From: Albimonas pacifica
Lineage (GTDB): Bacteria > Pseudomonadota > Alphaproteobacteria > Rhodobacterales > Rhodobacteraceae
Direction of reading: 5' to 3'
Length of the DNA stretch: 64,000 nt
Assembly (NCBI RefSeq): GCF_900113695.1
Contig: NZ_FOQH01000008.1
Span: 124,001 to 188,000 of the forward strand
In this document: one piece after another, positions 23,876 to 29,986 of the stretch
How the letters are laid out: every line of letters begins with the position of its first letter
How positions within the stretch are numbered: the stretch's first letter is position 1
The notes under the pieces: model-generated
The model's input: the letters and a program-made list of their open reading frames with translations, nothing else
Told to the model about the DNA's origin: nothing
Databases searched by the model: none
Made by a program: the position numbers and the translations under genes

Positions 23876-24628
23876 ATGACGCTTTCCTATACCGGCGGCG
23901 AGCTGGCGGTGATCGTCTTCGCGATGCTGTTCGCGGGCTTCGTGAAGGGCGCGACGGGGCTGGGCTATTCCACCTCCTGCCTGCCGATCCTGGCGCTGTC
24001 GCTGGGGCTGAAGGCCAGCCTGCCGCTGGTGCTGGCGCCCTCGCTCGCCTCCAACGTCACGGTGATGCTGGGGGCGGGGCCGGTGGCGCCGGCCGTGCGG
24101 CGCTTCTGGCCGATGCTGGCGGCGGCGCCGCTGGGCGTGCTGGCGGGCGCGGCGCTGCTGGGGCGGGTGGACGGCGACATGGCCGGCGCCGCGCTCGGCT
24201 GCGCGCTGGTCGCCTGGTGCGCCTTCGCCTTCGCCACCCCCCACTGGCGCCTGCGCCCGGCGCTCGAGCGGCCGCTCGCCCCTGGGGTGGGGCTGGTCAC
24301 CGGCGTGATCAACGGGCTGACCGGCAGCCAGGTGCTGCCGATCACCCCCTTCCTGATGTCGCTGGAGATGCCGCGGGGCGTGTTCCTGCACACGCTGAAC
24401 CTCTCCTTCACCCTGTCGACCCTCGCCATGGGCGCGGCGCTGACCCGGCTGGGGATCATGACGGTCGAGACGGCCACGATCTCGCTGAGCGGCATCGTGC
24501 TCTCGGTGGCGGGCGTGCGCGCGGGCGCGGCGCTGCGCCGGCGGCTGCCGGAGCGGACCTTCCGCGCCGGCGTGCTGGCGGTGCTCAGCCTCGCCGGCGC
24601 CGCGCTGATCGTGCGGGGGCTGGGATGA
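23876..24628 (+). CDS. TauE/SafE-family membrane transporter
   Basis: 250 residues with about eight hydrophobic segments and the duplicated TauE motif, seen as FAGFVKGATGLGYSTSCLPIL (first half) and GVINGLTGSQVLPITPFL (second half). The family exports sulfite, sulfoacetate or other organosulfur anions. The substrate cannot be told here. Its stop overlaps the start of the CAP-domain gene (ATGA), so the two are translationally coupled. 112 bases of GC-rich sequence separate it from the DUF1513 gene; it may belong to the same transcript. Confidence 0.88.
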   Translation: MTLSYTGGELAVIVFAMLFAGFVKGATGLGYSTSCLPILALSLGLKASLPLVLAPSLASNVTVMLGAGPVAPAVRRFWPMLAAAPLGVLAGAALLGRVDGDMAGAALGCALVAWCAFAFATPHWRLRPALERPLAPGVGLVTGVINGLTGSQVLPITPFLMSLEMPRGVFLHTLNLSFTLSTLAMGAALTRLGIMTVETATISLSGIVLSVAGVRAGAALRRRLPERTFRAGVLAVLSLAGAALIVRGLG

Positions 24629-25843: not shown

Positions 25844-27127
25844 TCAGCCGCGGCGGCGGGCGTGGGCGTCGTCGTCGTAGCCGCCGCGACGCTCCTCGCG
25901 CTCGCCGGCGGGGCGGTGGGACGCCTCGCCGTGGCCGGAGGCGGAGGTGGAGGCGCGGTGCGTCTCGGCCGCCGCGCGGTGCATGGTCTCGCCCCCGGCC
26001 GGCACCACCAGCTCGCGCCGCGTGACCTCGCCCGAGACGGGATCCACATGCAGCTCGCGGTCGGGGGAGGCCCATTCGGGACGCGGCACCTCGCCGGTCT
26101 TGGACAGCAGGATGGCGATGGGGCGGGTGGTCTCGAACTTCGAGAAGATCATCACGAGGACGACCATGATCGGCACGGCGAGGAACATGCCGGTCGCGCC
26201 CCAGATCGCCCCCCAGGCCACCAGCGACAGCAGGATCACGAAGGTCGAGAGGTTGAGCTGGTCGCCCATCAGGCGCGGGACGATGACGTTGCCGGCGATG
26301 AACTGGATCACGCCCAGCATCGCCGCCAGCAGCAGCACCGTCCCCGGGTCGCCGGTGATCAGGGTGGCGAAGGCGGTGGGCACGGCCACGCCCAGCAGCG
26401 AGCCGATGGTGGGGATGTAGTTCAGCGCGAAGGCCACGAAGCCCCACAGCGCCGCGCCCTCGATCCCCAGCGCCCAGCAGGTCGCCGAGGTGGTCACGCC
26501 GACGCCGGCGCTGACCAGCGTCATCAGCCACAGGTAGCGCCCGGTCTCGTGCCCGATCTCGTCCATGATCGCGCGCAGGCGGGCGAGGTTGGTGGCGTCG
26601 TGCACCAGGTTGCGCAGCTTGGCCTGGAAGAAGCGGTCGTCGGTCAGCAGGAAGATCGTGTAAAGGAAGATCAGCGAGGCGTCGGAGACCGCCGAGCGCG
26701 CCATGTCCAGCATCGCGGTCAGCCCGCCCTCGCCGGCGAAGCGCTCGAACAGCGCCTCCTTGGTGAGGTGGTCGCTCAGCCCCTGGCCGTTGAGCCAGTA
26801 CCACACCCGCAGGAACAGCGGGTTGCCGTAGAGGGTCAGGTCGTCGGTCAGCGAGGACAGCGACAGCACCACCATCTGCGCCGCGATCACCAGGGCGCCG
26901 AACAGGATCGCCACCGCCACGACCCGGACGCCGCCGCGGCGGAAGCGGCCGACGAAGCGGATGCGCATCAGCGCGGTGGTCAGGCCGTTGACCAGGAACC
27001 AGGCCAGGATCGCCAGCGCCACGGGCACCGCGTACTCGGAGGTCGCCGCGAGGCTCCAGATGGCGAGCACGGTGAAGCCCAGCACGAAGAACGGGCCGGC
27101 GGCGAGGGTCTGTCCTATGCGGAACAT
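25844..27127 (-). CDS. AI-2E family (PerM/TqsA-like) membrane permease
   Basis: 427 residues. The family core spans about residues 10-345 with seven to eight membrane helices, an extracytoplasmic loop after the third, and the signature GFVAFALNYIPTIGSLLG followed by QFIAGNVIVPRLMGDQLNLSTFVILLSL. Related proteins include the AI-2 exporter TqsA and sodium/proton antiporters, so substrate assignment is open. The last 75 residues are a charged, His/Arg-rich, probably disordered tail, longer than usual. No good ribosome site precedes the ATG at 27127. Confidence 0.88.
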   Translation of the reverse strand: MFRIGQTLAAGPFFVLGFTVLAIWSLAATSEYAVPVALAILAWFLVNGLTTALMRIRFVGRFRRGGVRVVAVAILFGALVIAAQMVVLSLSSLTDDLTLYGNPLFLRVWYWLNGQGLSDHLTKEALFERFAGEGGLTAMLDMARSAVSDASLIFLYTIFLLTDDRFFQAKLRNLVHDATNLARLRAIMDEIGHETGRYLWLMTLVSAGVGVTTSATCWALGIEGAALWGFVAFALNYIPTIGSLLGVAVPTAFATLITGDPGTVLLLAAMLGVIQFIAGNVIVPRLMGDQLNLSTFVILLSLVAWGAIWGATGMFLAVPIMVVLVMIFSKFETTRPIAILLSKTGEVPRPEWASPDRELHVDPVSGEVTRRELVVPAGGETMHRAAAETHRASTSASGHGEASHRPAGEREERRGGYDDDAHARRRG

Positions 27128-27349: not shown

Positions 27350-27724
27350 TCAGTCCGAGGCGTCGCCGGCGGTCTCGGCCTCGTCGTCGCAGAAGATGTC
27401 GTGCAGCACCTGCAGCAGCCGGGCGGCGCGGTCGTCGGCGATGCGGTAGAAGATGATCTTCCCCTCCCGCCGGTTGTCGACCAGTCCTTCCAGCCTCAGC
27501 CGGGCGAGCTGCTGGGAGACGGCCGACTGGCGCGCCGACAACAGGCGCTCGAGCTCGGTGACCGACTTCTCCCCCTCGACCAGGGCGCACAGGATGCGCA
27601 GCCGTCCCTCATGCGCGAGCGCCTTGAGGAAGGCGGTGGCTTCGTCGGCGCGGGCCTCCATGCCCTGCAGGTCTGCGGCGTGCCCCGCATCGGGGCGGGT
27701 ATCCAGCGCGGTCGTCATAATCAC
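27350..27724 (-). CDS. sqrR: SqrR/BigR-type persulfide-sensing ArsR-family repressor
   Basis: 124 residues with an ArsR winged helix: ALAHEGRLRILCALVEGEKSVTELERLL, then the recognition helix ARQSAVSQQLARLRLEGLV and the wing RREGKIIFYRI. It has exactly two cysteines, C46 and C112, 66 residues apart. In Rhodobacter capsulatus SqrR the sensing pair C41/C107 has the same spacing and forms a polysulfide bridge that releases DNA. The metal-binding motif of ArsR/SmtB proteins is missing. It is divergent from hemA across 419 bases containing an ATTC-N8-GAAT palindrome. Confidence 0.88.
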   Translation of the reverse strand: MIMTTALDTRPDAGHAADLQGMEARADEATAFLKALAHEGRLRILCALVEGEKSVTELERLLSARQSAVSQQLARLRLEGLVDNRREGKIIFYRIADDRAARLLQVLHDIFCDDEAETAGDASD

Positions 27725-27747
27725 TCGCTATATCTGCCCGGGCCGGC

Positions 27748-27759
27748 AATGCCGGCATT
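27748..27759. promoter_or_regulatory. 12-bp palindrome upstream of the SqrR-like gene
   Basis: AATGCCGGCATT is a perfect palindrome centred 29 bases before the start codon of the SqrR-like gene, followed by two GCATTC copies. It may be an autoregulatory site; the match to the known SqrR motif is poor. Confidence 0.3.
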
Positions 27760-27949
27760 CAAGCATTCCTCTAGATAGTCGACCCGTCGCTATAACAACA
27801 GAGGACGTGGCGACGCATCGTCGAATTCGCAACATGGCGGGCGATCACGGCGGGATGTGGGCGTCCCCGGGGCGTGGAGGCGGTGATCGCGTCGCGAAAC
27901 GGGGGCGGAGACGGCCGACGTCGCGCAGGCCGCCGCCCTTGCGGAAAAA

Positions 27950-27969
27950 ATATTCATAAACGGGAATAT
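27950..27969. promoter_or_regulatory. Candidate SqrR/BigR operator between sqrR and hemA
   Basis: ATATTC (27950-27955), eight bases, then GAATAT (27964-27969): a perfect dyad in an otherwise GC-rich region. It contains ATTC-N8-GAAT, the pattern I recall as the R. capsulatus SqrR binding site. A TATAAA element (27967-27972) overlaps its right arm and could be a -10 box for hemA, so binding would block transcription. Inference. Confidence 0.55.
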
Positions 27970-28143
27970 AAACGGCTTGCAGCATCCAAATGCCGCGGTT
28001 TATTGGGGAGACGCGGCGCCTGCGGTTATGGCACAGGTGTCGCCCCGATGACGAACGCTGACGTACGCGCGCGGATCGGGTCGGGCGACCGGCGCCGGGA
28101 TGGCTGCCCCTCTCCGACCCTTCGCGCAACGGAGGACCGGCGG

Positions 28144-29373
28144 ATGGACTACGAGGCCTTTTTCCGCGGCGAGCTCGACGACCTTCGCGCGGAGGGCAAT
28201 TACCGCGTCTTCGCGAACCTCGAGCGGCACGTGGGCGCGTTTCCGCGCGCGACGCGCCGGCGCGACGGCACGATGGCGAACGACGACCGCCACGAGGTGA
28301 CGGTCTGGTGCTCGAACGACTACCTCGGCATGGGCCAGCACCCGGCGGTGCGCGCGGCGATGGTCGAGGCGATCGAGACCTGCGGCGCCGGCGCGGGCGG
28401 CACGCGCAACATCTCGGGCACCAACGTGCACCATGTCGAGCTGGAGCGCGAGCTCGCCGACCTGCACGGCAAGGAGAGCGCCCTGATCTTCACCTCGGGC
28501 TACGTCTCGAACTGGGCGAGCCTGGGCACGCTGGGGGCGCGGCTGCCGGGCTGCGTGATCGTCTCGGACGCGCTCAACCACGCCTCGATGATCGAGGGGA
28601 TGCGGCACTCGAAGGCCGAGCGGAAGATCTGGAAGCACAACGACGTCGAGGACCTGGCGCGCAAGCTCTCGCAGATCGAGCCGGGGCGCCCGAAGGTGGT
28701 GGCCTTCGAGAGCGTCTACTCGATGGACGGCGACATCGCCCCGATCCGGGAGATCTGCGACGTCGCCGACCAGTACGGCGCGATGACCTATCTCGACGAG
28801 GTCCACGCGGTGGGGCTCTACGGCCCGCGGGGCGGCGGCGTCGCCGAGCGCGAGGGGCTGATGGACCGGATCACGATCATCGAGGGGACCCTGGGCAAGG
28901 CCTTCGGCGTGATGGGCGGCTATATCGCGGGCTCCGCCGCGGTCTGCGACTGGGTGCGCAGCTTCGCCTCGGGCTTCATCTTCACCACCGCGCTGCCGCC
29001 GGCGGTGGCGGCGGGGGCCTGCGCCTCGATCCGGCACCTGAAGGCCTCGGACGCGGAGCGGCTGGCGCAGCGGCGGAACGTGGCGCTGTTGCGGGCGAGA
29101 TTGGACCAATTGGGCATACCGCATCTTCCCAACCCGTCGCACATTGTGCCGGTGATGGTGAAGGACCCGGTGAAGTGCAAGATGCTGTCGGACATCCTGC
29201 TGGACGACTACGGCATCTACGTGCAGCCGATCAACTATCCGACCGTGCCCAAGGGGACCGAGCGGCTGCGCTTCACGCCCTCGCCCCTGCACACGGAGAC
29301 GGAGATCGAGAAGCTGGCCCAGGCGCTGCACGCGCTGTGGAGCCAGTGCGCGCTGGCGCGCGCCGCCGCCTGA
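28144..29373 (+). CDS. hemA: 5-aminolevulinate synthase
   Basis: PLP-dependent condensation of glycine and succinyl-CoA to 5-aminolevulinate, CO2 and CoA, the entry to haem (and, where present, bacteriochlorophyll and corrin) synthesis in alphaproteobacteria. 409 residues, full length. Seen are [43 protein letters not shown] and the Schiff-base lysine in [28 protein letters not shown] near the end is conserved. The ATG at 28144 follows GGAGGA. The open frame further upstream does not look coding. Confidence 0.97.
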
Positions 29374-29557: not shown

Positions 29558-29986
29558 ATGAAACAGGTCGCGAAGCTCGCAGCCATCGGGACGGCGTTCG
29601 GGATCATGGGTCTGGGCGCGGCGGCGCCGGCGGCGGCCGCGGACGCGGCGGCGGGCGAGAAGCTCTTCGCGCGCTGCAAGGCCTGCCACGAGATCTCGAA
29701 CGGCGACGAGGTGATCCAGCGCGGCGGCAAGACCGGCCCGAACCTCTACGGCGTGATCGGGCGCAAGGCCGGCAGCGTCGAGGGCTTCCGCTACGGTCCC
29801 GACCTGGTGGCGGCGGGCGAGAAGGGCCTGGCGTGGACCGAGGCGGAGATCGCTGAATACGTGGCCGATCCGCGGGCCTTCCTGCAGGCCTACCTCGACG
29901 ACAAGTCCGCGAAGTCCTCGATGACCTTCAAGCTCAACAAGGGCGGCGAGGACGTGGCGGCCTACCTGGCCTCGGTCGCGCAGTAA
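29558..29986 (+). CDS. cycA: Cytochrome c2 (class I, soluble periplasmic)
   Basis: 142 residues with a Sec signal peptide ending AAAA (about residue 28). Haem attachment is CKACH (C40, C43, H44) and the sixth ligand is M122 in SSMTFKL. The insert GKTGPNLYGVIGRKAGSVEGFRYGPDL and YVADPRAFLQAYL matches cytochrome c2 of purple bacteria and the mitochondrial-type electron carriers that link the bc1 complex to oxidase or reaction centre. An ATG at 29552 is also in frame, but the AGGGAG ribosome site (29545-29550) fits the ATG at 29558. Confidence 0.93.
   Translation: MKQVAKLAAIGTAFGIMGLGAAAPAAAADAAAGEKLFARCKACHEISNGDEVIQRGGKTGPNLYGVIGRKAGSVEGFRYGPDLVAAGEKGLAWTEAEIAEYVADPRAFLQAYLDDKSAKSSMTFKLNKGGEDVAAYLASVAQ

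Follow-up and report, generated by a model that had tools for sequence, protein, structure and literature searches.

A putative SqrR-type operator between the divergent sqrR and hemA genes of Albimonas pacifica and its possible bearing on haem synthesis

The divergent sqrR and hemA genes

The window, meaning the whole stretch of DNA that was analysed, covers 64 kb (C28:124001-188000) of the 6.02-Mb genome of Albimonas pacifica and contains a divergent gene pair made up of sqrR, which encodes an ArsR-family repressor, and hemA, which encodes 5-aminolevulinate synthase, as the sequence-only reading of this region had it (Table 1). A palindrome lies between the two genes. Downstream of sqrR is the gene of an AI-2E family transporter, to which no role is assigned and which adjoins sqrR in locus L116 as well; downstream of hemA is a c-type cytochrome gene whose product shows weak similarity to the cytochrome portion of SoxD/SoxE (36.7% by tblastn, about 98 aa). 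The cytochrome gene adjoins hemA in the other species of the genus too, with the order kept in L079 and L080. Queries with SoxB to SoxF, SoxV and YedE returned only this SoxD/E-like cytochrome from the window, and likewise from L079, L080 and L116; the regulator gene of the window sits outside the sox cluster, which carries a paralogue of it. The names puhE, AcsF, soxB to soxF, soxV and PmpAB are those that we assume from the sequence, without a family call.

Table 1. Coordinates of the features discussed (window positions unless a contig is named).
Feature	Position	Strand	Basis
sqrR, SqrR/SoxR-type ArsR repressor, 124 aa, dithiol pair C46/C112	27350..27724	-	HTH_5, phmmer, identity
hemA, 5-aminolevulinate synthase, divergent from sqrR	28144..29373	+	TIGR01821, 663 bits, cut-off 339
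Putative SqrR operator ATATTC-N8-GAATAT (core ATTC-N8-GAAT, 27952-27967)	27950..27969	.	motif search, matrix score
Conserved hemA-promoter strip CTTGCAGCATCCAAATGCCGCG	27976..27997	+	alignment with G121, full strip common to both
Strip core GCATCCAAATGC	27982-27993		inside CTTGCAGCATCCAAATGCCGCG, also in G120
AI-2E family transporter, downstream of sqrR	25844..27127	-	PF01594
c-type cytochrome, downstream of hemA	29558..29986	+	Cytochrom_C domain
Second hemA, in photosynthesis cluster	C31:120924-122129		
Sox-cluster SoxR paralogue of the same genome	C36:550024		gene in the sox cluster

The product of sqrR has an ArsR-type winged helix (HTH_5/PF01022, 46.2 bits against a cut-off of 22) and exactly two cysteines, which lie 66 residues apart, as had been noted from the translation. 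In phmmer comparisons with solved structures the protein ranks nearer to SqrR (6o8l/13ct, E 2.7e-34) and BigR (4.9e-22) than to the metal-sensing ArsR proteins (SmtB, 3.8e-10), and YgaV (3cuo) is a weaker match (1.3e-15). Identity is 66% over 91 aa to SqrR from Rhodobacter capsulatus (PDB 6o8k-6o8o, 13ct), which has the same two sensing cysteines, 48% to BigR and 43% to HlyU; the NCBIfam equivalog model of BigR (NF040642) gives 106.3 bits, under its cut-off of 155. The 66-residue spacing had been put forward as that of the SqrR sensing pair, and C46 and C112 do align with the cysteines of SqrR, but the pair aligns with those of BigR and HlyU as well and is therefore no longer taken as evidence specific to SqrR. 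Both cysteines are kept in the aligned orthologues of all three genomes of the genus, counter to one way in which the earlier assignment could have failed. A tree of 98 rows and 95 columns, mostly unresolved, places the hemA-linked regulators of the genus in one clade (88) and the SoxR proteins of the genus apart from it (99). Membership of the SqrR/SoxR group of persulfide sensors, of the dithiol type, is supported by the domain, the identities and the cysteines, and the original placing of the protein with SqrR and BigR is borne out at the level of the group. The true start of sqrR may be an ATG two codons inside the annotated GTG start.

As for hemA, the only other copy among the matches listed for this genome lies in the photosynthesis cluster, with genes for the reaction-centre H chain, a DUF3623 protein and a rubrerythrin-family protein, which we take to be AcsF. 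Given this location of the second copy, the hemA of the window is probably the main one.

The palindrome and the operator of the SqrR/SoxR group

In full, the dyad reads ATATTC-ATAAACGG-GAATAT; it is perfect, as first read, with 174 bp between it and the hemA ATG and 225 bp to the sqrR start on the other side, and is the sole match in the 64 kb at up to two mismatches (0.04 expected). The further proposal that it overlaps a -10 box of hemA was dropped, as a consensus search of both strands of 27650-28200 found no sigma-70-like promoter (0.3 expected by chance).

An alignment query with the regulator gave the best 80 matching loci among the genomes compared (one per species), 79 of which (1.19 Mb) come from outside Albimonas. 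In these 79 best matches ATTC-N8-GAAT occurs 85 times, compared with 8-22 times at spacings of 4-7 and 9-12, and among seven further half-site pairs the nested TTCA/TGAA alone peaks, at N6, which amounts to the identical sites. The genes soxB and ccdA are present in 49 of the 79 best-matching loci, and 43 of these 49 have the box and hold 79 of the 85 sites, indicating that it is primarily the operator of SoxR-type regulators in sox clusters; five of the 27 best-matching loci without any marker, some of them on short contigs, have a box, with six sites in total. ATTC-N8-GAAT is on these counts the predicted operator of the SqrR/SoxR protein group, and a match between the dyad of the window and this operator is supported.

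For scoring, 63 of the 85 sites found in the relatives went, in both orientations, into a matrix that contains no sequence from the genus of the window. The dyad scores 25.3, with the second-best place in the window at 8.4, and is the top scorer among the 13 core sites of the genome. A simulated 6-Mb order-1 sequence, which ignores A/T-rich intergenic stretches, contained 25 core sites with a best score of 12.4, one place of any kind at 14 or above and none at 20 or above. Seven of the 13 core sites in the real genome reach 14, five of them at the hemA, Blh, YeeE, cydA and CMD genes and two elsewhere (23.6 and 16.8). The bare pattern, on the other hand, is not enriched, with 12, 13 and 7 copies at N7, N8 and N9 in this genome, 20, 19 and 8 in the congener G120 and 6, 13 and 7 in the congener G121, which rules out a genus-wide enrichment. 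The genome scan that had been suggested thus recovers sites at hemA, Blh, YeeE and cydA, but the N8 spacing is not commoner than N7, and the weight given to the dyad comes from the score with its A/T-rich context, from its location and from the conservation of other sites, not from the bare-pattern count.

Each of the three genomes of the genus (window, L079 and L080) retains the divergent sqrR-hemA pair, though only one has the box: L079 and L080 have nothing above 12, and the homologous strip of G121 scores -3.6 at best. The pairing of the genes is therefore conserved in the genus and the operator is not, and the hemA box would be either young in this species or lost in its congeners. At the place homologous to the dyad, G121 (L080) has a different short palindrome, GTGAA-N4-TTCAC, and in G120 a tspO gene (PF03073, L045:2298-2813), another tetrapyrrole-linked gene, lies between sqrR and hemA. 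Just downstream of the dyad is the conserved strip, whose core occurs upstream of hemA in all three genomes, once in each and nowhere else; as a single-copy sequence it was rejected as a general regulator site. The strip is the likelier core promoter of hemA and is perhaps its -35 region. A different motif conserved upstream of the orthologous hemA genes had been named as a point that would count against the reading, and this is partly what was found, as the core is common to all three hemA promoters and the congeners have no box.

The dyad may act on sqrR, or its binding protein may be the paralogue from the sox cluster. If it were a true SqrR operator through which sqrR regulates itself, hemA would be a mere bystander across the shared intergenic region. 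Such autoregulation has precedents, as YgaV binds its own promoter according to the part of the article available (PMC9774250) and BigR is placed at the bigR promoter in the figure legend of a review (PMC8148161). The box is absent where the synteny of sqrR and hemA persists, which suggests that hemA there does not need it, and it lies much further from hemA than the approximately 20 bp seen between box and start codon at the YeeE and CMD-like genes of the same genome. Against this, the box is nearer to hemA than to sqrR and borders directly on the conserved strip before hemA, and the sqrR genes of the congeners also lack it, which would make autoregulation equally species-specific. An operator for sqrR only is considered unlikely.

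Boxes at other genes and the protein that binds them

All core sites were examined with their surroundings in the three genomes, 13 in the genome of the window, 13 in G121 and 19 in G120. Five of the 13 recur in G121, namely those at the Blh-like, YeeE, cydA and CMD-like genes and a tRNA site, and two recur in G120 (Blh, YeeE). The box at the Blh-like dioxygenase gene scores 14.1 here, 17.8 in G121 and 12.2 in G120, and the Blh model gives 406 bits over the dioxygenase half of the G121 orthologue, which does not reach the two-domain cut-off of 625. At the gene pair for a YeeE-like protein (Sulf_transp, just below the cut-off) and its DUF6691 partner, the scores are 22.5 here, 16.4 and 14.7 in G121 and 22.6 in G120. 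The cydA box (21.1 here, 17.4 in G121, none among the G120 core sites) lies 3' of the CydC gene and 84 bp before the ATG of cydA, which is followed by cydB (TIGR00203), and that of the CMD/AhpD-domain gene scores 18.1 here and 14.8 in G121, again with none among the G120 core sites. In a comparison by eye, the half-sites at the Blh-like and YeeE genes are constant between species and the spacers vary, as expected of a palindrome under selection; the spacer is identical between species at cydA and differs by one base at the CMD-like gene, and these two boxes are accordingly weaker evidence.

The CMD/AhpD-domain gene, whose start closely follows the box in two species (L007:2501-2516 and L101:2501-2516), is a candidate addition to the persulfide regulon. 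In G120, a box scoring 14.1 (L107:2501-2516) lies upstream of a gene for cytochrome c oxidase subunit I (TIGR02891); oxidases of that kind are poisoned by sulfide. A TauE/SafE-type sulfite exporter is encoded in the window at 23876-24628 (+), about 2.7 kb from sqrR, with no box nearby. At least six of the 13 core sites of this genome appear to be chance occurrences, one at a tRNA-Gln gene and others with scores not above 12, and two well-scoring ones are without a sulfur gene: that of 16.8, at an RTX-repeat gene, and that of 23.6 (L003:2501-2516), near a resolvase gene on a 13.7-kb contig (C21) and far from the sulfur genes seen. The sites L003, L004, L006, L008, L009, L010, L013 and L014 were left outside the regulon list, as no sulfur gene was found at them.

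In comparing these targets to known systems, one parallel in kind is the BigR operon, as Blh and YeeE/YedE membrane proteins are classical BigR targets in the portions of the sources at hand (PMC5823870; PMC7315123), and the same kinds of target, a Blh-type dioxygenase and YeeE/DUF6691, occur here together with the same dithiol. Unlike those of BigR, which lie in one operon with the regulator, the targets here are scattered over the genome, and the protein of the window stays under the NCBIfam cut-off for BigR. For SqrR of R. capsulatus, the targets are stated to include sqr and rhodanese, with the PDO and PDO-rhodanese genes reported as not regulated by SqrR, in the accessible text of that study (PMC9995734). 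Here, in contrast, the Blh-like gene has a box and none stands at an sqr gene; no SQR was recognised by an FCSD query of the genome, a weak test that returned only soxF and one weakly similar flavoprotein, read as not SQR, neither with a box nearby. The sulfide-responsive YgaV of Escherichia coli offers a parallel for cytochrome bd, as cydAB read counts go up in a ygaV mutant (PMC9774250, as far as its available text goes), which fits the cydA box of Albimonas, whereas the haem link described there is binding of haem and not control of hemA. Persulfide-responsive control of the Blh-like gene, the YeeE pair and cydA is well supported by these boxes, and a persulfide-sensing repressor quite likely acts on the Blh, YeeE and cyd genes, an estimate lowered slightly by the tie of the box count to sox-cluster regulators.

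The same tie bears on the identity of the protein that binds. The ATTC-N8-GAAT regulon could be run by the SoxR paralogue of the sox cluster, or by both proteins, with the protein of the window in another role; almost all of the recognition helix is common to the two, and the boxes of the relatives fall overwhelmingly in sox-cluster loci, with few in the marker-free loci among the best matches listed. As a group, the ArsR-type SoxR proteins of sox clusters, for example that of Hyphomicrobium denitrificans, belong with the protein of the window, and the sox-cluster loci of the relatives share the box seen in Albimonas, although the SoxR of Albimonas is a separate paralogue and no sox gene was found in the window except the SoxD/E-like cytochrome. 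In the 11.8 kb read of the sox cluster of this genome (L081), no box exceeds 12 although its SoxR remains, which argues that the boxes of the genome are not the usual ones of its SoxR, and that of G121 has a single degenerate site (20.3). The genus SoxR seems to have left the motif, and the operator of this sox cluster may have changed. Moreover, the strongest box of the genome adjoins the gene of the window's protein, which rather than the paralogue would bind the boxes at Blh, YeeE and cydA; control by the paralogue, raised slightly by the count in relatives, is still judged improbable. It is very unlikely that the dyad arose by chance as an A/T-rich palindrome or is the site of an unrelated factor, as its lack in two congeners, the unenriched bare pattern and the high-scoring site on the contig with the resolvase gene are outweighed by the expectation of 0.04 in the window, by the absence of scores above 20 from the 6-Mb simulation (A/T-rich intergenic composition ignored) and by the adjoining gene of a repressor of the matching kind.

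Haem synthesis and sulfur genes in the family

A hemA gene lies within 8 kb of the regulator gene in one of the 80 best-matching loci, the Albimonas one, and within 1.5 kb in none of 29 other loci of the family (among the matches listed). The regions upstream of hemA were surveyed in 108 pieces (104 distinct), 48 from named loci and 60 fetched; four of the fetched pieces in which hemA does not start exactly at base 701 were kept, and L081 and L082, which have no hemA, were left out. Only the piece from the window exceeds 20 (one of the 104 distinct regions), and the next scores, 17.0 and 16.3, each have a broken half-site. This rules out that hemA boxes are common in the family, and control of hemA by a sulfane-sulfur repressor that is specific to this species is plausible.

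Related bacteria seem to make a link between sulfur and haem in another way, by placing hemA behind sulfur-oxidation genes. Of 394 sampled genomes, at least 20 have, by coordinates alone, a gene of the sqrR type at a distance of about 9-12 kb from hemA. The sequence was read for 12 of them, in two cases over no more than the 1.5 kb preceding hemA. In the ten loci L087-L096, which were picked for this distance and thus show layout and not frequency, hemA follows the sox genes on the same strand and a SqrR/SoxR-type regulator stands divergent at the opposite end; the boxes of these clusters score 29-36 in nine loci and 23.1 and 20.8 in the tenth. Between soxF and hemA is a small conserved gene in three loci checked, and L094 has no room for one. 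Each of these genomes has two or three hemA copies among the matches listed. In a HemA tree of 44 rows, the proteins of L087-L096 all fall in one clade of 14 (99); for its remaining four members (L057, L067, L069, L071) soxD or soxF lies in the 1.5 kb preceding hemA, making all 14 rows sox-linked; the HemA of the window is on the opposite side of the tree (97). The HemA of G278 (L083, G278:C1) groups with those of the window's genus (98), and its gene lies behind soxB-soxC-soxD in a fetched stretch with a box of 31.8 at position 816, in which no regulator gene was found. Altogether, hemA was found behind sox genes in 15 of the relatives inspected. R. capsulatus itself was not found among the sampled genomes, where the best match to it among those listed is 77%.

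This layout has a counterpart in Sulfitobacter, whose sox clusters contain 5-aminolevulinate synthase genes, listed among genes of unknown function in the part of the study available; there, the interval between soxF and soxH holds DUF302, 5-aminolevulinate synthase and YeeE in four type strains and only DUF302 and 5-aminolevulinate synthase in a fifth (PMC11034169). In both cases hemA is associated with sulfur-oxidation genes or their regulator, but in Sulfitobacter, as far as that text goes, it is inside the sox cluster and in Albimonas it belongs to a separate divergon with its own box. No published reading of the sox-cluster 5-aminolevulinate synthase genes as regulation was found in the open-access literature.

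From the sequences and positions observed, the motif statistics and the recurrence of the Blh, YeeE and cydA boxes, we infer the binding, the paralogue that binds, the sulfur chemistry, the direction of the effect on hemA and the physiology. The explanation that we prefer, held with moderate confidence and lowered a little by the box count of sox-cluster regulators, is a repressor that senses persulfide through a dithiol, controls the Blh, YeeE and cyd genes and in this species acts on hemA too. The reduced SqrR dimer would bind ATTC-N8-GAAT palindromes, and sulfane sulfur would link C46 to C112, by homology, lowering the affinity and derepressing the targets: the Blh-type sulfur dioxygenase, the PmpAB-like YeeE/DUF6691 transporter pair, cytochrome bd (cydAB) and, as a further target in this species, the hemA that adjoins the regulator's own gene. 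On exposure to sulfide, the cell would detoxify it, turn to an oxidase that contains haem and tolerates sulfide, and produce the haem that this oxidase needs. The box probably tunes hemA instead of shutting it off, given its distance from the ATG and its place just upstream of the conserved promoter strip, and tuning would be expected where full repression of what is probably the main hemA copy is costly. The direct control of haem synthesis by sulfide or persulfide that was first suggested thus fares well insofar as the dyad matches the operator of the group and the same box stands at sulfide-defence genes and cydA, but it would apply at the level of the species, as the box is missing in the congeners.

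Sensors of the SqrR, BigR and SoxR kind are known for sulfide oxidation and detoxification, and both cytochrome bd, a sulfide-tolerant oxidase, and the c-type Sox proteins require haem; hemA would be an unusual member of an otherwise familiar set of persulfide-responsive genes. A link between SqrR and hemA was not found in the open-access literature, including text naming both, nor was a published sulfane-sulfur repressor acting on hemA, within the partial coverage of that literature. In the sections available, SoxR and sHdrR of H. denitrificans affect iron and haem genes (PMC12423496), and haem binding, with a modest effect on DNA binding, is reported for SqrR and YgaV (PMC9774250, PMC9143464). 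If the protein of the window binds haem to the same effect, haem would bring about a slight derepression of its own synthesis, and a haem-sensor loop becomes testable.

If the box works, sulfide would directly set the supply of tetrapyrroles in a bacterium whose genome includes a photosynthesis cluster, and the sox-linked hemA genes of the relatives offer a second test of the connection between sulfur and haem in other species. Tentatively, sulfane-sulfur repressors may repeatedly have come to control the initial step in haem synthesis in the family (as defined in GTDB), by three routes: a clade of sox-cluster hemA paralogues, a separate lineage behind soxBCD in G278, and the gain of a SqrR operator at the main hemA. 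Should this be true, sulfide or thiosulfate would raise haem for the Sox cytochromes and cytochrome bd, and haem synthesis would be a regular arm of the sulfur response.
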